Of a stretch of 64,000 nt of DNA, positions 14,976 to 23,980 are shown in pieces (within the stretch, counting starts at the first letter, position 1; every line of letters starts with the position of its first letter). Origin of the DNA: an uncultured Oscillospiraceae bacterium (lineage in GTDB: Bacteria; Bacillota; Clostridia; Oscillospirales; Oscillospiraceae); the NCBI GenBank assembly GCA_947623745.1, contig CANQHN010000005.1:62001-126000 (forward strand), given 5' to 3'. The position numbers were made by a program, and so were the translations under genes. The notes below the pieces were generated by a model. That model did not search any database and had not been told where the DNA came from. It saw only the letters and a list, made by a program, of their open reading frames with translations.

Positions 14976-16076
14976 ATGGTTAAGCTGCTGATCGTCTTTG
15001 GGACCAGGCCGGAGGCCATCAAAATGTGCCCGCTGGTGAAGGAGTTCCGCCGCCGGGGCAGAATGGAGGTCCGGGTGTGCGTCACCGGCCAGCACCGGGA
15101 GATGCTGGACCAGGTGCTGGGGCTGTTCGAGGTGGTCCCGGACTACGACCTGCAGATCATGCAGAAGGGACAGACCCTCTACGACGTCACCACCAGGGTC
15201 CTGTGCGGGATGAAGGAGGTGCTGGAGGACTGCCGGCCGGATCTGGTATTCGTCCATGGCGACACCACCACGGCCTTCGCCTCGTCCCTGGCCAGCCTGT
15301 ACCAGCAGATCCCCGTGGCCCACGTGGAGGCGGGGCTGCGCACCAACAACATCTACTCCCCCTTCCCGGAGGAGTACAACCGGCAGGCCATCGGCCTGGT
15401 GGCCCGGTATCACTTCTCCCCCACCCGGAGGGCGGCGGACAACCTGCTCCGGGAGGGGAAGCCGGCGGAGCACATCTTTGTGACCGGCAACACCGTGATC
15501 GACGCGATGCAGACCACGGTGCGGCCGGACTACGACAGCGAGATCACCCGCTGGGCCAAGGACAGCCGCCTGCTCATGATGACCGCCCACCGCCGGGAGA
15601 ACCTGGGGGAGCCCATGCGCGGCATGTTCCGGGCGATCCGCCGGGTGGCGGAGGAGTATCCGGACGTGAAGGTGCTCTACCCCGTCCACCCCAACCCGGC
15701 GGTGCGGAGGGTGGCCAGTGAGGTCCTGGGGGGCTGTGGCCGGATCAGGCTCATCGAGCCCCTGGACCCCTTCGACTTCCACAACCTGATGAACCACGCC
15801 TACCTCATCCTGTCGGACAGCGGCGGCGTCCAGGAGGAGGCCCCCGCCCTGGGGAAGCCCGTGCTGGTCATGCGCGACACCACGGAGCGGCCGGAGGGCG
15901 TGGAGGCCGGGACGCTGGAACTGGTGGGGACCCGGGAGGAGCCCATCTACCGCGCCTGCCGGTCGCTGCTGGACGATCCGGAGAAGTACCAGAGGATGAG
16001 CCGGGCCCAGAACCCGTACGGGGACGGCAGGGCCAGCCAGCGCATCGCGGACATCATCGAGCGGGACTTCCTGTGA
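14976..16076 (+). CDS. wecB: UDP-N-acetylglucosamine 2-epimerase (non-hydrolysing)
   Basis: 366 residues. Interconverts UDP-GlcNAc and UDP-ManNAc, the precursor for wall teichoic acid linkage units or capsule. GT-B fold with GTRPEAIKM at the N-terminus, the HGDTTTAFASSLASLYQ and HVEAGLRT segments, TAHRREN, VHPNP and the nucleotide-binding SDSGGVQEEAPALGKP near the C-terminus. Full length. It sits 54 bp after the ATPase gene and ahead of a terminator, so it could be the last gene of the same transcript. Confidence 0.95.
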   Translation: MVKLLIVFGTRPEAIKMCPLVKEFRRRGRMEVRVCVTGQHREMLDQVLGLFEVVPDYDLQIMQKGQTLYDVTTRVLCGMKEVLEDCRPDLVFVHGDTTTAFASSLASLYQQIPVAHVEAGLRTNNIYSPFPEEYNRQAIGLVARYHFSPTRRAADNLLREGKPAEHIFVTGNTVIDAMQTTVRPDYDSEITRWAKDSRLLMMTAHRRENLGEPMRGMFRAIRRVAEEYPDVKVLYPVHPNPAVRRVASEVLGGCGRIRLIEPLDPFDFHNLMNHAYLILSDSGGVQEEAPALGKPVLVMRDTTERPEGVEAGTLELVGTREEPIYRACRSLLDDPEKYQRMSRAQNPYGDGRASQRIADIIERDFL

Positions 16077-16122
16077 GCCCGCGAAAAGGAGACAGCGCCA
16101 TCGCGGTTTTCGCCCGCGTTCA

Positions 16123-16153
16123 GCCGCGCCCGCCCTGCGGGCGCGGCCTTTTT
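16123..16153 (+). terminator. Terminator after wecB
   Basis: 10-bp stem GCCGCGCCCG / CGGGCGCGGC, loop CCCTG, then TTTTT. Confidence 0.85.
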
Positions 16154-16187
16154 GCGCAATTTACGGCGAAAAGTGAGAAATTTCCAC

Positions 16188-16232
16188 TTCCACTTGCCGG
16201 GTGGATGTGGTATAGTAACAATGTATTACTAT
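16188..16232 (+). promoter_or_regulatory. rlmB promoter with overlapping palindrome
   Basis: TTCCAC, 17 bp, TATAGT (16188-16216). The -10 box is embedded in the perfect inverted repeat ATAGTAA-N7-TTACTAT (16212-16232), which is well placed for a repressor. Confidence 0.6.
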
Positions 16233-16303
16233 GATTAGACAAAACTGTACTGTGCCCGCCGGGCCCGCCCGGCGGCGCACATCCCGATAAGGAGGTCCGC
16301 CCC

Positions 16304-17089
16304 ATGGACAAACGCCCCCCTCTGCGCCGCTCCGCCCCGGTGGAGACAGAGAACGACGGCGTCATTGAAGGCCGCAACGCGGTGGTGGAGGCCCTGCGGG
16401 CCGGCGTGACCATCGACAAGATCTATCTGCTGAAGGGCGAGACCGACGCCGTGCTGGGCCATATCGCCTCCACCGCCCGGGAGAAGGGCATCGTGGTGGT
16501 GGACGCCGACCGGCGCAAGCTGGACAACATGAGCCGCACCCACTCCCACCAGGGGGTCATCGCCCTGGCCGCCGTGCGGGAGTATGTGGAGGTGGAGGAC
16601 ATCCTGAACATCGCCCGGGAGCGGGGGGAGGCCCCCCTCATCGTGGTGTGCGACGAGCTCAGCGACCCCCACAACCTGGGGGCGGTCATCCGCACCGCCG
16701 ACGCCGCCGGGGCCCACGGGGTCATCATCCCCAAGCGCCGCTCCGCCGGCCTGACCGCCGTGGTGGCCAAGACCTCCGCCGGCGCGGTGGCCCACGTCCC
16801 GGTGGCCCGGGTGCCCAACCTCCCCACCCTGCTGAAGGACCTGAAAAAACAGGGCATCTGGGTCTTTGGCACCGCCGCCCAGGGGACCACCTCCCTCTAC
16901 CAGGCCGATTTGAAGGGCCCCGCCGCCATCGTCATCGGCAGCGAGGGCAGCGGCATGGGCCGCCTGGTGGAGGAGAACTGCGACTTCACCGTGTCCATCC
17001 CCATGTTTGGGAAGATCAACTCCCTCAACGCATCCGCCGCCGCTGCCGTCCTGCTGTACGAGGCGGTGCGCCAGCGCACCTGCGGCTGA
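16304..17089 (+). CDS. rlmB: 23S rRNA 2'-O-ribose methyltransferase, SpoU/TrmH family (RlmB-like)
   Basis: 261 residues. Substrate-binding domain (about 20-95: EGRNAVVEALRAGVTIDKIYL, HQGVIALAA) and a SPOUT knot domain with the three signatures DELSDPHNLGAVIRTADAAG, VIGSEGSGMGRLVEE and the C-terminal IPMFGKINSLNASAAAAVLLYE. Family members methylate G2251 of 23S rRNA or related sites; a tRNA target cannot be excluded. Start ATG with GGAGG. The next gene begins 25 bp later. Confidence 0.92.
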   Translation: MDKRPPLRRSAPVETENDGVIEGRNAVVEALRAGVTIDKIYLLKGETDAVLGHIASTAREKGIVVVDADRRKLDNMSRTHSHQGVIALAAVREYVEVEDILNIARERGEAPLIVVCDELSDPHNLGAVIRTADAAGAHGVIIPKRRSAGLTAVVAKTSAGAVAHVPVARVPNLPTLLKDLKKQGIWVFGTAAQGTTSLYQADLKGPAAIVIGSEGSGMGRLVEENCDFTVSIPMFGKINSLNASAAAAVLLYEAVRQRTCG

Positions 17090-17114
17090 CCTTTCGATAT
17101 GCTGAGGATCGAGC

Positions 17115-19721
17115 ATGAGCGATAAAGAGAAGAAAAAACCGAATACCTCCGAGGAGCTCATCGACGTCAAGTCCCTGATCCGCGGCGCCGACGGAGGCGG
17201 ATTCACGCTGGAGGACATCCTGTCCGAGTACGGCGTGGACGCCGCCCCCCGGTCCGCCGCGCCGGTCCAGGGGCCCGCGCCGGCGGCGAAGCCTGCCCAA
17301 ACGGCCGCCCCGGTCCGAGATAGCGCTCCGGCCTTCCCGGCCGGCGCGCCGGCCGCCGACCTGCCATGGCCCGAGGCGAGGCCCAAGCCGAAATACACCG
17401 GCAACGTGGTCTCCTTCCCCGGCGGCGGGGCCCGGCGGGAGGAGGAGCCTGAGAGCGCAGAGGAGACGCCGGAGCCCGCTCCGGAGCAGCCCAGACCCGC
17501 TGCCCCGCGCCCCGCGGGGGGGACGGAGAAGTCGAAGGTGTTCCCGGGGGAGCTGGAGGTCACGCCCGGCCCGGCGGCGGCGTCCCGTCAGCGGACGCCG
17601 TCCGCCTATCAGGAGAGCGCCGCGGCGCCCGAGGAGAAGCGGGCCCCCGCCAGGGAGCGGAAGAGCGCGTCCAGGGGGCGCAGGGGCGGCGCGAAGGAGA
17701 GCGGACCAAGCCCACAAGTGTCCCGCACTGTAAAAAGAGAGAAAAGGGCCGCCTCCGGGACCATGACGGCGTTCCCCGGGGACATGGACGGCCTCTCCCG
17801 TCAAAAACCGAGACCGGAGCCCATCCAGGCGGAGACCCGGGAGGCGGAGGACCCGGACAAGGTCATCGACTTCCCGGAGCAGAAGCCGCCCCGGGACGGC
17901 CTGTTCCAGAAGATCAAGGAGAAGGCGGACGACTACGCCGACCAGATGTTCCAGGAGTCGGAGCAGATGGACATGGAGGAGATCCGCCGCCGGGAGCGGC
18001 TGATCCCCGGCACGGACGAGGAGGACACCGACGACATCCGCTACGTCCGCCGCCCCCGCCGGGAGGACCCGCCCCAGCCCGACCTGCCCCCCCAGGAGCT
18101 GGCCCGGACGTATGCGTCGGGGCTGGGCGGCCTGCGCCTGCGCACCCTGGCGGTGATCCTGCTGACGGCGTTCGAGGTGCTCATGGCCATGCTGCCCGCG
18201 CTGGGCTTTGTGTGGCGCGGCCCCATGAACAGCTACCGCCTCCAGGTCCTGGTGTGCGCCGGGCCGCTGGTGCTGGGGATGCTGCTGGGCAGCGACGTGC
18301 TGGCCCAGGGCATCATCCGGACAACCCAGATGAAATTCGGCATGGACAGCCTGACGGTCCTGTCCTGCTGCTTCACCCTGATCGACGCGCTGACCCTGGC
18401 GGCCAGCCAGAACCGGAGCGGACAGCTGCCCTACTGCGGGGCGGCGCTGGCCTCCCTGGCGCTGACCATGCACGGGGAGTACCACAAGCGCTGTGCCCTG
18501 CGGCTGAGCTGCCGCACCGCCTCCACCTCCGCCGAGCCCTTCCGGGTCACCCTGGACGAGGGGAAGTGGAACGGCAAGGACACCTACGCCAAGTGGGTGG
18601 GCACCAGCGAGAGCTTCGGCAGCCAGATCCAGGAGGACGACGGCGCCCAGCAGATCTACCGGGTGGTGTGCCCGGTGCTGGCTGTCGCCTGTGTGCTGCT
18701 CTCCCTCATCGCCTCGGTGGGGGCGGGGAACGCGGAGCACATCTGGTGGGCCCTGAGCGCCTCCTTCACCGCTTCCAGCGCTCTGGGGGCCGGCATCGCC
18801 TATGGCCGCCCCTTCCATAAGATCGCCCGCCGTCTGGCCCAGGGCGGCTCGGCCCTGGCCGGCTGGCCGGGAGTGGTCAACTCCCGCCGGGGCAGCCGGG
18901 TGCTGCTCACCGACGGCGACCTGTTCCCCACCGGCTGTGTCACCATGACCCGGGTGGAGATCTTCGGGGAGTTTCCCCTGGAGCGGGTCACCGCCTATGC
19001 CGCCACCCTCATCCGGGACTCGGGCAGCGGCCTGGAGAAGCCCTTCCGGGACATGCTGCGCTCCCAAGGGGGCCTGTACCGCACCGCCGAGGGCCTGACC
19101 TGCTACGAGGGAGGCGGCCTGTCCGGCGTGATCCGGGGGGAGCGGGTGCTGGTGGGCTCCGCCTCCTTCATGACCCTGATGGACATCCACCTGCCCCCGG
19201 GGATGAACGTGAAAAACGCGGTGTTCTGCGCCATCGACGGGGAGCTGGCGGGGATTTTCGCCCTGAACTACGCCCTGCCCGACGCGGTGTTCCCCTCCCT
19301 GGAGGCCCTGCTCCACGAGCGGGTGGTCCCGGTGCTGGCCACCCGGGACTTCAATATCATCCCGGCCATGCTCCACCAGCGGTTCCGCCTGGCCTCGGAT
19401 AAGATGGACTTCCCCACTGTCCAGCGCCGCCGGGAGCTTTCCGACCCGGGCCAGAGCCACAACCCGGTGCTCACCGCGCTGCTGTGCCGGGAGGGGCTGC
19501 TGCCCTTCGCCGAGACGGTGGTGGGGGCGCGGCGGCTGCGCCGCTGCACCCAGCTGGGGGCGGTGCTCTGCTGCGTCAGCGCGGCGCTGGGGATCATGGT
19601 GAGCGCCTACCTGGTCTCGGTGGAGGCGTTCGTGTCCCTGTCCCCGCTAAACCTGCTGGTCTACATGTTCATGTGGCTGCTGCCCGTCTGGTTCCTCACC
19701 GACTGGGCGCCGCGGTATTGA
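17115..19721 (+). CDS. Degenerate P1B-type ATPase-like membrane protein with long disordered N-terminus
   Basis: 868 residues. Residues 1-330 are low-complexity (Pro/Ala/Glu/Arg). From about 340 the layout follows heavy-metal P-type ATPases: two pairs of membrane helices, a short cytoplasmic insert, two more helices, a cytoplasmic block and a final helix pair. The block ASSALGAGIAYGRPFHKIARRL matches the position of the family's CPC-containing helix but has no cysteine, and VLLTDGDLFPTG (596-607) occupies the place of DKTGTLTxG without the phosphorylated Asp. RVLVGSASFM resembles the nucleotide-domain end. The TGES and GDGxND motifs are missing. It is probably a pseudoenzyme; role unknown. 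It lies 25 bp after rlmB and ends at a strong terminator. Confidence 0.6.
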   Translation: MSDKEKKKPNTSEELIDVKSLIRGADGGGFTLEDILSEYGVDAAPRSAAPVQGPAPAAKPAQTAAPVRDSAPAFPAGAPAADLPWPEARPKPKYTGNVVSFPGGGARREEEPESAEETPEPAPEQPRPAAPRPAGGTEKSKVFPGELEVTPGPAAASRQRTPSAYQESAAAPEEKRAPARERKSASRGRRGGAKESGPSPQVSRTVKREKRAASGTMTAFPGDMDGLSRQKPRPEPIQAETREAEDPDKVIDFPEQKPPRDGLFQKIKEKADDYADQMFQESEQMDMEEIRRRERLIPGTDEEDTDDIRYVRRPRREDPPQPDLPPQELARTYASGLGGLRLRTLAVILLTAFEVLMAMLPALGFVWRGPMNSYRLQVLVCAGPLVLGMLLGSDVLAQGIIRTTQMKFGMDSLTVLSCCFTLIDALTLAASQNRSGQLPYCGAALASLALTMHGEYHKRCALRLSCRTASTSAEPFRVTLDEGKWNGKDTYAKWVGTSESFGSQIQEDDGAQQIYRVVCPVLAVACVLLSLIASVGAGNAEHIWWALSASFTASSALGAGIAYGRPFHKIARRLAQGGSALAGWPGVVNSRRGSRVLLTDGDLFPTGCVTMTRVEIFGEFPLERVTAYAATLIRDSGSGLEKPFRDMLRSQGGLYRTAEGLTCYEGGGLSGVIRGERVLVGSASFMTLMDIHLPPGMNVKNAVFCAIDGELAGIFALNYALPDAVFPSLEALLHERVVPVLATRDFNIIPAMLHQRFRLASDKMDFPTVQRRRELSDPGQSHNPVLTALLCREGLLPFAETVVGARRLRRCTQLGAVLCCVSAALGIMVSAYLVSVEAFVSLSPLNLLVYMFMWLLPVWFLTDWAPRY

Positions 19722-19732
19722 GGATACATAGT

Positions 19733-19769
19733 AAAACAGCGGGCCGCCCACCGGGCGGCCCGCTGTTTT
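19733..19769. terminator. Bidirectional terminator
   Basis: 17-bp perfect stem AAAACAGCGGGCCGCCC / GGGCGGCCCGCTGTTTT with loop ACC, between convergent genes. A or T runs on both sides serve both strands. Confidence 0.9.
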
Positions 19770-19777
19770 GGTGCTGT

Positions 19778-20704
19778 TTAAATGTGTTTTTCCAGCCAGG
19801 CGAGCAGGTCGTCCAGCACCTCCTGCCGGTTGATCTCGTTGAACATCTCGTGCCGCCCGCCGGGGTAGAGCTTCATGGTCAAATCCCTGGTGCCCCGCTT
19901 CTGGAAGTAGCCGTACACCTTTTTGACCCCCTCGCCCATGCTCCCCACCGGGTCCTGGCCGCCGGACATGAGGTAGACCGGGGTGTCCGGGTCCATCTGC
20001 CCCAGGGCCCTGGGGCTGGCGATGTACTGCAGCCCCCCCATCATGTCCCGGAACAGGCCGGCGGTGGGCTGGAAGGAGCACAGCGGGTCGGCCAGGTAGG
20101 CGTCCACCGCCCTCTCGTCCCGGCTGATCCAGTCAGCGCTGGTGCGGTTGGGCTTGAACTTCTTGTTGTAGGCCCCCAGGGACAGCTCGCTGACGATGGG
20201 GCTGACCGTCTTATCCCCCTGGAGGCAGCAGATGAGCCCGGCCAGGGCCTTGCCCAGGGCCACCAGGGCCGCCGGCTCCTGCCCGGTGCCGGAGAGCACC
20301 GCGCCGGATACCTCACCGGGGTAGCGGCACAGGTAGGTGCGGGTGAGGAAGGAGCCCATGGAGTGCCCCAGCAGGAAGTAGGGGAGGCCGGGGTACTTCT
20401 CCCCCTGGAGCTGCCGCAGCCGGCGCACGTCCGCCGTCACCAGGGTCCAGCCGTCGTATTTTGCGAACCAGCCGTACTCGCCCTCCCGGGCGGTCTGGCC
20501 GTGGCCCAGGTGGTCCCCGCCGCACACCGCGAACCCGTGGGCGGCCAGGAACCGGGCCACGTGGTCGTACCGGCCGATGTGCTCGGCGATGCCGTGGACG
20601 ATCTGCACCACCGCTTTCGGCTCCCCCTCGGGCAGCCACTCCCGGACAAAGATCTGGTGGACGCCGTCGCTGGAGGGGAAGCGGAAAGAATTTTGATTTT
20701 CCAT
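19778..20704 (-). CDS. Alpha/beta hydrolase, monoacylglycerol lipase / lysophospholipase type
   Basis: 308 residues of the serine aminopeptidase S33 / Hydrolase_4 family. The oxyanion region is VQIVHGIAEHIGRYDHVARFL, the nucleophile elbow is LGHSMGS, the acid lies in YLMSGGQDPVG and the histidine in YPGGRHEMFNEI. Likely hydrolyses lipid esters in the cytoplasm. The ATG has a GGAGGA site and its own TTGACG / TACACT promoter. No signal peptide. Confidence 0.9.
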   Translation of the reverse strand: MENQNSFRFPSSDGVHQIFVREWLPEGEPKAVVQIVHGIAEHIGRYDHVARFLAAHGFAVCGGDHLGHGQTAREGEYGWFAKYDGWTLVTADVRRLRQLQGEKYPGLPYFLLGHSMGSFLTRTYLCRYPGEVSGAVLSGTGQEPAALVALGKALAGLICCLQGDKTVSPIVSELSLGAYNKKFKPNRTSADWISRDERAVDAYLADPLCSFQPTAGLFRDMMGGLQYIASPRALGQMDPDTPVYLMSGGQDPVGSMGEGVKKVYGYFQKRGTRDLTMKLYPGGRHEMFNEINRQEVLDDLLAWLEKHI

Positions 20705-22187: not shown

Positions 22188-22240
22188 CGCGCTGAGAGGG
22201 GGCTGTGTGTCCCCCAGTGACAAATGGAGGGAAAGACAAA

Positions 22241-23980
22241 ATGAGACACAGAAAGATCCGATTCTCCCGCGTCCTGCTGGCGGTGATGCTGCTGCTGGCC
22301 ATGGTGACCACGGCCTACGCCGCCGGGGACCCCACCGAGGAGGTGGGCAGCAAGTACATCGAGTGCCCCGACTGCGGCACGCTGACCGTGGTGCTGTCTG
22401 AGGACGGCCAGGCCGTCCCCTGCGAGACCTGCCAGGACTCCGAGTACCCCGGCTACGTCCTGTCCCCCAGCAATTTCTACAACACCGCCTTCGCCCTGCT
22501 GCCCCCGGTCATCGCCATCGCCTTGGCCCTGATCACCAAGGAGGTCTACTCCTCCCTGTTCATCGGCATCCTGGTGGGCGGCCTGCTCTACTCCAACTTC
22601 TCCTTTGAGGGCACCGTCACCCACGCCTTCAGCGACGGCATCGTGGCCTCACTGGCCGACAGCTACAACGTGGGCATCCTGATCTTCCTGGTCATCCTGG
22701 GCACCATGGTGTGCCTGATGAACAAGGCCGGCGGCTCCGCCGCCTTCGGCCGCTGGGCCCAGAAGAACATCAAGAGCCGGGTGGGCGCCCAGCTGGCCAC
22801 CATCGTGCTGGGCTGCCTGATCTTCATCGACGACTACTTCAACTGCCTCACCGTGGGCAGCGTCATGCGGCCTATCACCGACCGGCACCGCGTCTCCCGG
22901 GCCAAGCTGGCCTACCTCATCGACGCCACCGCCGCCCCCATCTGCATCATCGCCCCCATCTCCTCCTGGGCCGCCGCCGTGGCCGGCTTCGCTGAGGACG
23001 GCCAGGGCCTGACCCTGTTCATCCGGGCCATCCCCTACAACTTCTACGCCCTGTTCACCATCGTGATGATGGTGGGCATGGTGCTGATGAAGGTGGAGTT
23101 CGGCTCCATGGCCCACCACGAGCGCAACGCCATTGACAACGGCGACCTGTTCTCCGGCTCCAACCCCTACGCCATGATGGAGGACGAGGTGGACGAGAGC
23201 AGGGGCACTGTGATGGACCTGGTGTTCCCCGTGCTGGTGCTGGTGGTGTGCTGCGTCATCGGCATGATCTACTCCGGCGACTTCTTCTCCGGGGAGAACT
23301 TCGTGGACGCCTTCTCCAACTCCGACGCCTCCGTGGGCCTGATGCTGGGCTCCGCCTTCGGCCTGCTGTTCGCCATCATCTACTACCTGGTCCGCAGGGC
23401 CCTGACCTTCAAGCAGATGATGGAGTCCATCCCCGAGGGCTTCAAGGCCATGGTCCCCGCCATCCTGATCCTCACCTTTGCCTGGTCCCTGAAGGGCATG
23501 ACCGACTCCCTGGGCGCCAAGTACTTCGTGCGTGACTTCGTCAAGGCCAACGCCGAGAACATGGCCATGTTCCTGCCGGTCATCGTGTTCGTCATCGGCT
23601 GCCTGCTGGCCTTCGCCACCGGCACCAGCTGGGGCACCTTCGGCATCCTGATCCCCATCGTGCAGAGCGTGTTCCCCATGGACAACCCCCTGGCCATCAT
23701 CTGCATCTCCGCCTGCATGGCCGGCGCGGTGTGCGGCGACCACTGCTCCCCCATCTCCGACACCACCATCATGGCCTCCGCCGGTGCCCAGTGCGACCAC
23801 GTCAACCACGTGTCCACCCAGCTGCCCTACGCCATCCTGTGCGCGGTGGTGGCGGGCGTGGCCTACATCCTCGCGGGCCTGCTGGCCTCCGCCGGCCTGC
23901 CCGGCCTGATCGCCCTGCCTGTGGGCATCGTGCTGATGATCGGCGTGCTGCTGGTCCTGAAAAACCGTCAGAAGGCGTAA
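22241..23980 (+). CDS. NhaC-family transporter under lysine control (predicted lysine uptake)
   Basis: 579 residues. An N-terminal signal-like helix (to about TTAYAA) is followed by an exported stretch with two Cys pairs (ECPDCG and CETCQ, a zinc-knuckle spacing) and then some 11 membrane helices of the NhaC antiporter family (FIDDYFNCLTVGSVMRP, APICIIAPISSWAAAV, GTSWGTFGILIPI, CGDHCSPISDTT). NhaC-like proteins behind lysine riboswitches have been predicted to be lysine transporters (LysW), so lysine rather than Na+/H+ is the likely substrate. Start ATG with TGGAGGG. A terminator follows. Confidence 0.9.
   Translation: MRHRKIRFSRVLLAVMLLLAMVTTAYAAGDPTEEVGSKYIECPDCGTLTVVLSEDGQAVPCETCQDSEYPGYVLSPSNFYNTAFALLPPVIAIALALITKEVYSSLFIGILVGGLLYSNFSFEGTVTHAFSDGIVASLADSYNVGILIFLVILGTMVCLMNKAGGSAAFGRWAQKNIKSRVGAQLATIVLGCLIFIDDYFNCLTVGSVMRPITDRHRVSRAKLAYLIDATAAPICIIAPISSWAAAVAGFAEDGQGLTLFIRAIPYNFYALFTIVMMVGMVLMKVEFGSMAHHERNAIDNGDLFSGSNPYAMMEDEVDESRGTVMDLVFPVLVLVVCCVIGMIYSGDFFSGENFVDAFSNSDASVGLMLGSAFGLLFAIIYYLVRRALTFKQMMESIPEGFKAMVPAILILTFAWSLKGMTDSLGAKYFVRDFVKANAENMAMFLPVIVFVIGCLLAFATGTSWGTFGILIPIVQSVFPMDNPLAIICISACMAGAVCGDHCSPISDTTIMASAGAQCDHVNHVSTQLPYAILCAVVAGVAYILAGLLASAGLPGLIALPVGIVLMIGVLLVLKNRQKA

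Follow-up and report, generated by a model that had tools for sequence, protein, structure and literature searches.

P-type ATPases form a textbook superfamily defined by a phosphorylated Asp. The P1B-1 copper ATPases (CopA; PDB 3rfu, 7r0g and 3j08) have the same order of membrane segments as the protein described here, an 868-residue product encoded at positions 17115–19721 of a 64,000-nucleotide stretch of DNA, hereafter the window, from an uncultured Oscillospiraceae bacterium (GenBank GCA_947623745.1, contig CANQHN010000005.1, positions 62,001 to 126,000). The nearest precedent in idea is human TMEM94/ERMA, which by description has a P-type layout and, like our protein, is missing TGES. 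According to PMC12134183, no nucleotide was seen at the proposed site of TMEM94, its affinity for an ATP analogue was micromolar, its ATPase activity was not detectable, and it is argued not to be a pump; this status is disputed (PMC13322241). TMEM94 differs from our protein in being eukaryotic, in having ten helices and an A-like domain, and in retaining a candidate Asp, D417. The gene in the window, an open reading frame (ORF) with an ATG start on the forward strand, as are all features below unless stated, was assigned by family-profile homology. Taking anatomy and loss of catalysis together, the 868-residue protein is almost certainly a diverged relative of copper-type P1B ATPases that lacks the catalytic apparatus.

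Searched singly, the sequence gave no match in Pfam, the PDB or PADLOC and only chance matches in NCBIfam (hisF, E = 0.02) and PHROGs (E = 0.52); it stayed below threshold in all four family libraries searched. In a profile search of the kind that the first-pass annotation of the window had proposed, a profile (A4) built from 24 members of the family was run on every PDB chain sequence. It retrieved 29 distinct sequences at E ≤ 0.01, each of them a P-type ATPase, with CopA (3rfu) the best at 6.9e-32. A second profile (A2), built from the window protein and 80 close relatives, placed the copper ATPase HMA4 first, weakly (1.3e-4), among eight matches up to E = 1 that include one unrelated flavoprotein at 0.046. 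The NCBIfam P1B models (CopA/ATPase-IB) matched nine of the ten remote members scanned, the best being CopA at 2.9e-16 and all lying below the curated cut-offs; the exception, L033, had no NCBIfam P1B match. Pfam, run on ten remote members, yielded no P-type family and just two weak unrelated matches.

Profile–profile alignment with hhalign matched the family to 25 rows of P-type ATPases drawn from related genomes at 99.96% (E = 6.4e-39), and the close-relative profile alone did so at 94.9%; profiles reversed over their whole length, and one of RlmB, gave 0–1.5%, and reversed sections at most 3.0%. Taken section by section, the match was 98.8% for the core of the phosphorylation (P) and nucleotide-binding (N) domains, 93.8% for MA–M2, 49.6% for M3–M4, 3.9% for M5–M6 and 0% for the actuator region. 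The 25 rows were kept from 34 P-type loci (L056–L059 and L140–L169) and chosen for DKTGTLT and GDG, so that DKTGT in all 25 is by construction; they represent 24 distinct proteins, L056 and L155 being one gene, and one row, L057, has no CPC and probably falls outside P1B. The nine loci that were dropped all carry DKTGT, TGE[SP] and GDGxND, with a different residue after DKTGT.

The membrane layout points the same way. Family-mean hydropathy peaks at residues 353, 384, 422, 445, 526, 552, 826 and 856 follow the P1B order MA, MB and M1–M6, with a weak ninth peak at 708 inside the P/N core. Under a stricter cut-off the window sequence alone lacks the peaks at 445 and 552 and has extra ones at 708–712 and 794, and the count of eight is therefore taken from the family mean and the alignment. 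Spacing was compared as medians in a joint alignment of 95 remote members plus the window protein with the 25 P-type controls. M3 lies 36 residues from the CPC column, and the CPC column 43 residues from the catalytic-Asp column, in family, controls and CopA; the Asp column is 69 residues from the GxG in both family and controls, and the GxG is followed by the TGD Asp after 84 residues in the family and 85 in the controls. From the family-mean peaks and the equal spacing, eight membrane segments are predicted, namely MA, MB, M1 and M2 (about residues 335–455, 18117–18479), M3–M4 equivalents (residues 516–566, 18660–18812) and M5–M6 equivalents (residues 803–868, 19521–19718, with W854 in 89 of 96 members). 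The P1B-like layout that had been read after residue ~340 is borne out by these eight peaks, their P1B spacing and the profile–profile match.

Two spacings differ. The M2 and M3 anchors are a median of 78 residues apart in the family versus 144 in the controls, and the TGD and M5 anchors (745–826) are 81 versus 113 apart, about 32 residues shorter. The deletions therefore fall on the actuator region and on the GDGxND part of the P domain. About half of the actuator region, with TGES, and some 32 P-domain residues, with GDGxND, are cut out, leaving a shortened actuator region (residues 456–515, 18480–18659) and a P-domain remnant whose end (residues 749–802, 19359–19520) shows gapped columns where GDGxND would stand. 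We do not claim the remaining actuator-region piece as an actuator domain, because by itself it shows no similarity to P-type ATPases.

For P-type ATPases, PMC10654040 describes DKTGT and the glutamate of the A domain. We surveyed such motifs in 80 close relatives (of 123) and 96 remote members, sets that may share genomes; the alignment of 96 sequences includes the window protein. DKTGT is absent from the window protein, from all 80 close and from all 96 remote members, and so is GDGxND, whose columns are gapped in 95–96 of the 96. TGES is absent from the window protein and the 80 close relatives; among the remote members TGE[SPTA] occurs in two, as TGEA at about position 357 of the 560-residue core, outside the actuator region. 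At the CPC position in M4 the window protein reads SAL, the flanking Cys is not conserved and the Pro is kept in 70 of 96, while the four remote members with [CST]P[CH] all carry it away from the M4 site. A single remote member, L277, has D[KR][TS]G (as DKSG), about 349 residues into the 560-residue core, compared with about 291 for the window loop. The motif scan thus upholds the earlier statement that CPC, TGES and GDGxND are missing, and the proposed survey found that relatives keep the loss. By comparison, the family profile's 16 best matches outside the order, controls not chosen by motif, all carry DKTGT, TGE[SPT] and GDGxND.

The place of DKTGT is taken by the loop TDGDLFPTG (residues 599–607, 18909–18935), as had been proposed. 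The catalytic column falls on T599, followed by D600-G-D602-L-F-P605. Across the 96 aligned sequences this column holds Asp in 25, Thr in 22, Arg in 12 and Ser in 10, and the Lys column (D600) holds Asp in 72 and Lys in none; beyond it the Gly column (602) holds Asp or Glu in 90, Phe or Tyr in 91 and P605 in 83. The family's own motif is roughly D-x-[DE]-hydrophobic-[FY]-P (DxDxFP), and its strict form is present in 80/80 close relatives and 58/96 remote members.

Other parts of the cytosolic core are retained. The N-domain end GGGLSGVIRGERVLVGSASFM (residues 666–686, 19110–19172) keeps G668 in 93 and G681 in all 96 members, and the VLVGSASFM string singled out by the first-pass annotation does align with the P1B 'GN' stretch. 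The His column of the SEHP His-Pro is Gly, Ser, Cys or Thr in 86/96 (GSG in the window protein); when alignment is disregarded, 25/80 close and 5/96 remote members have an HP-like string at some point in the core. At the TGD position stands TRDFNI (residues 743–748, 19341–19358), with T/S743 in 71 members, D745 in 91 and a family-specific N747 in 81. The description of the pump as dead is thus borne out for DKTGT, CPC, TGES and GDGxND, all gone, but not for the TGD Asp, which survives.

Set against CopA, the protein has collinear P and N domains and shares the N-domain 'GN' Gly and the TGD Asp. Unlike CopA, it is without DKTGT, CPC, TGES and GDGxND, has lost the His-Pro column, keeps about half of the actuator region and carries a long, variable N-terminus. 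By descent the family belongs to the P1B lineage, but to class it with the P1B ATPases would be wrong, because it fails the defining catalytic tests. Our literature searches brought up no paper that we recognised as treating this gene or a family of inactive P-type ATPases in bacteria, which is weak evidence of absence since most of the searches returned few papers or none.

The gene is near-universal in one order, which we take to be Oscillospirales. A protein search found it in 56 of 60 genomes, the organism's own included. Profile matches at E ≤ 1e-30 occur in 243 of 247 order genomes (134/135 genera by the tool's tally) and matches better than 1e-50 in 241, membership being judged by E-value and sequences inspected for the fetched ones only. 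Named relatives, among the 80 of 123 listed, include Pseudoflavonifractor, Flavonifractor, Lawsonibacter and Intestinimonas. G235 and G293, both of genus g166, reached only ~1e-33; these are probably ordinary P1B matches, and both genomes may have lost the gene. A loss is equally conceivable in G391, G206, G258 and G270, where the profile search of order genomes gave no match. In a phylum sample, four order genomes matched at 4.5e-149 or better, whereas the 295 genomes outside the order held no family-level match: 55 matched, none better than 1.3e-37, nearly all within profile positions 211–509 of 574 and one over 16–487. A class-wide search with one remote protein likewise found, outside the order, mainly frames whose alignment is confined to the P/N core.

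In 20 non-overlapping pairs (of 42 qualifying) drawn from the 80 close relatives, with the window gene in none, the ratio of nonsynonymous to synonymous substitution rates (dN/dS) of the core was 0.046–0.332, and N-terminal dN/dS exceeded core dN/dS in all 17 pairs with both computed. As judged from these ratios, the pseudo-ATPase gene is under purifying selection in close relatives and is not a pseudogene. One relative, L048 (G057:C38:4824-6551), has an in-frame TGA that leaves a 430-residue downstream ORF, either real decay or a sequencing error.

Before the first membrane segment lies an N-terminal extension (residues 1–333, 17115–18113), presumed to be disordered and cytosolic. Its length agrees with the ~330 residues reported earlier, and it is rich in Pro (14%), Ala (13%), Glu (11%) and Arg (10%). 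In 93 proteins including that of the window, 131–938 residues precede the last 530; four other proteins were too short for this count. Pfam gave no match to the N-terminus of the window protein and only sub-threshold ones to ten N-termini (of the 24 longest proteins).

Near its start the extension carries a short motif, FTLEDILSEY (residues 30–39, 17202–17231), located by a sequence expression and a motif profile. Similar strings such as FSLDDILAEF stand near the start of other N-termini, with the helix-like consensus F-x-L-[DE]-[DE]-I-L-x-E-[FY]. The expression, written after members had been seen, occurs in 36 of 93 N-termini (92 remote plus the window) versus a mean of 0.05 and a maximum of 1 in shuffled sequences; a looser expression run over 104 ORFs of earlier sets gave 69 segments once repeats were dropped, a count of segments and not of carriers. 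Within the window the motif matches at this one site only, and in the organism's own genome the pseudo-ATPase is the only match to the motif profile better than E = 2. Strong matches in 60 relatives are mostly frames of pseudo-ATPase-family length. A 182-residue frame matched at G025:C187:3364-3420 (+) with E = 8.8e-6 might be another carrier of the motif or a fragment that arose by duplication. The motif bears a resemblance to PopZ; a PopZ/DUF2497-like reading was not supported, as Pfam PF10691 had no match in the organism's own genome at E ≤ 10.

The gene begins 25 bases beyond the stop codon of rlmB (16304–17089), which encodes the 23S rRNA G2251 2'-O-methyltransferase (NCBIfam TIGR00186, 244.3 bits against a cut-off of 160.15), and GAGGA lies just 5' of the ATG of the pseudo-ATPase gene. 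In a consensus scan, terminator-like hairpins were found 5' of rlmB (16123–16147) and 3' of the pseudo-ATPase gene (19732–19770, 18 pairs), none was found in the gap between the two genes, and a weak one lies within the pseudo-ATPase gene (18194–18206). Because the hairpins flank the pair with none between and the spacing is short, rlmB and the pseudo-ATPase gene look like one two-gene transcription unit, by consensus scan and spacing alone. An 811-residue open frame on the opposite strand (17025–19460, −) is read as a GC-rich shadow ORF. Further downstream are ORFs that by eye resemble a monoglyceride-lipase-type hydrolase (19778–20704, −) and an NhaC-type antiporter (22205–23980, +).

The placement next to rlmB, pointed out in the first-pass annotation, is conserved across the order: in 94/96 remote loci rlmB lies upstream on the same strand within 1500 bases, and in 87 of these the two genes are −60 to 120 bases apart. 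Of the two misses, L211 has no upstream sequence and L031 has 3.5 kb without rlmB. In the first locus set, which has 22 of its 106 loci in common with the second (96), rlmB is upstream in 96, and nine of the ten misses lie within 250 bases of a contig end. An EF-G-like gene is downstream on the same strand in 36/96 loci and upstream on the other strand in two, at a distance under 440 bases in 33/38; its identity was established by family search for one representative (L227:2-1861, −; NF009381, 767.9 bits) and by BLAST similarity to that representative for the others. Four other large neighbour clusters were placed. Three are mostly on the opposite strand, overlapping or beside the pseudo-ATPase gene, one of them with no NCBIfam match; the fourth, present at 13 loci in mixed positions, resembles an 8-oxoguanine DNA glycosylase gene.

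The Post-Albers cycle as known cannot run without DKTGT, TGES, GDGxND and CPC, and we therefore favour a platform or sensor over a pump. In the model we propose, a copper-type P1B ATPase ancestor would have lost pumping and then been conserved as a membrane platform, and the 868-residue protein would neither form a phospho-Asp intermediate nor pump. The remnant of the P and N domains, with its DxDxFP loop and kept TGD Asp, may sit at the membrane's inner face and bind a protein or a small ligand there as a module, and the long flexible N-terminus with its helix-like motif may catch a cytosolic partner. A ribosome- or translation-linked partner is our first guess, because of the presumed co-expression with rlmB and the EF-G-like gene in 36/96 loci. 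The near-universal retention beside rlmB suggests a pump turned into something other than a pump. As a whole, a former pump kept as a partner-recruiting membrane platform is the best explanation, with a probability of roughly 0.55; the scaffold or sensor role put forward by the first-pass annotation stands at even odds. A bolder version, in which at the root of the order a copper pump became an essential, lineage-defining membrane hub recruiting ribosome or translation factors (RlmB- and EF-G-linked) through its tail and dead P/N domain, is a long shot.

Several observations weigh against this platform model. Asp stands exactly at the catalytic column in 25/96 members, and D745 of the TGD, kept in 91/96, is odd for a purely structural remnant; together with the acidic loop it leaves room for ligand binding or other chemistry. 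The first-pass annotation had named homologues with an alignable catalytic Asp as what would overturn its view, and these 25 formally touch on it, but we read their Asp as part of the acidic DxDxFP loop, because the Lys column never holds Lys and the GDGxND columns are gapped. Taken alone, the actuator remnant has no similarity to P-type ATPases and M5–M6 only a weak one. One member, L037, has almost no N-terminus, and the expression for the N-terminal motif matches no more than 36 of 93 N-termini. The consensus scan of 15900–20100 detected no promoter-like site, and no EF-G-like gene was seen by eye among the window's downstream ORFs to 23 kb. The gene may also not be indispensable, because two genomes (G235 and G293) seem to be without it and four gave no match.

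Other explanations share part of this evidence. The protein might be a metal or ligand sensor (a transceptor) whose membrane part binds metal or lipid and whose dead cytosolic domains relay the signal without hydrolysis. The MA–M2 section and the P/N core still match P-type ATPases, and the helix-4 Pro (70/96) and W854 (89/96) are kept; however, CPC has been lost, the [CST]P[CH] matches in four remote members lie away from M4, and the positions conserved in at least 65% of the 96 include no Cys, His or Met, which leaves such a sensor doubtful. The loop could instead be the site of a re-tooled enzyme, a HAD-type DxD phosphatase or phosphotransferase acting on another substrate. D600 (72/96) and D/E602 (90/96) would form a HAD-type motif I one residue off the P-type Asp column, and with D745 (91/96) and T/S743 (71/96) they make an acidic cluster that could bind Mg2+. 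This enzyme is distinctly unlikely, as the GDGxND stretch, which we take to be HAD motif IV, is deleted family-wide, so that the acidic residues of that motif were not found; besides, the positions conserved in at least 65% include no Lys beyond residue 745, and the first D is absent in 24/96.

Pseudo-subunits often regulate active paralogues, and four E1-E2 ATPase loci of the organism's own genome pass the Pfam cut-off, all with DKTGT and GDGxND. A regulatory subunit of one of these four true P-type ATPases, or else a passive channel or facilitator, is nonetheless improbable, as the conserved neighbour is rlmB and none of the other large clusters that were identified is a P-type ATPase. Decay or chance resemblance might have been suspected from the failure of any family library to recognise the single sequence and from the in-frame TGA in L048 of G057. 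This has next to no probability: the presence of the gene in 241/247 genomes, the core dN/dS of 0.05–0.33 in 20 close pairs and the PDB profile match of 6.9e-32 refute pseudogene and chance readings, and rule out that of a shadow ORF.

In summary, this study describes a gene that goes unrecognised, at their thresholds, by all four family libraries searched. A strongly constrained family without the Asp motif, nearly order-wide and found in none of the 295 outside genomes, would show that the P-type scaffold is useful without its engine. The family would offer a clean prokaryotic system for asking what a dead P-type ATPase does, as is debated for human TMEM94. If the hub version holds, a prokaryotic P-type pseudo-ATPase would be an organiser rather than a transporter.

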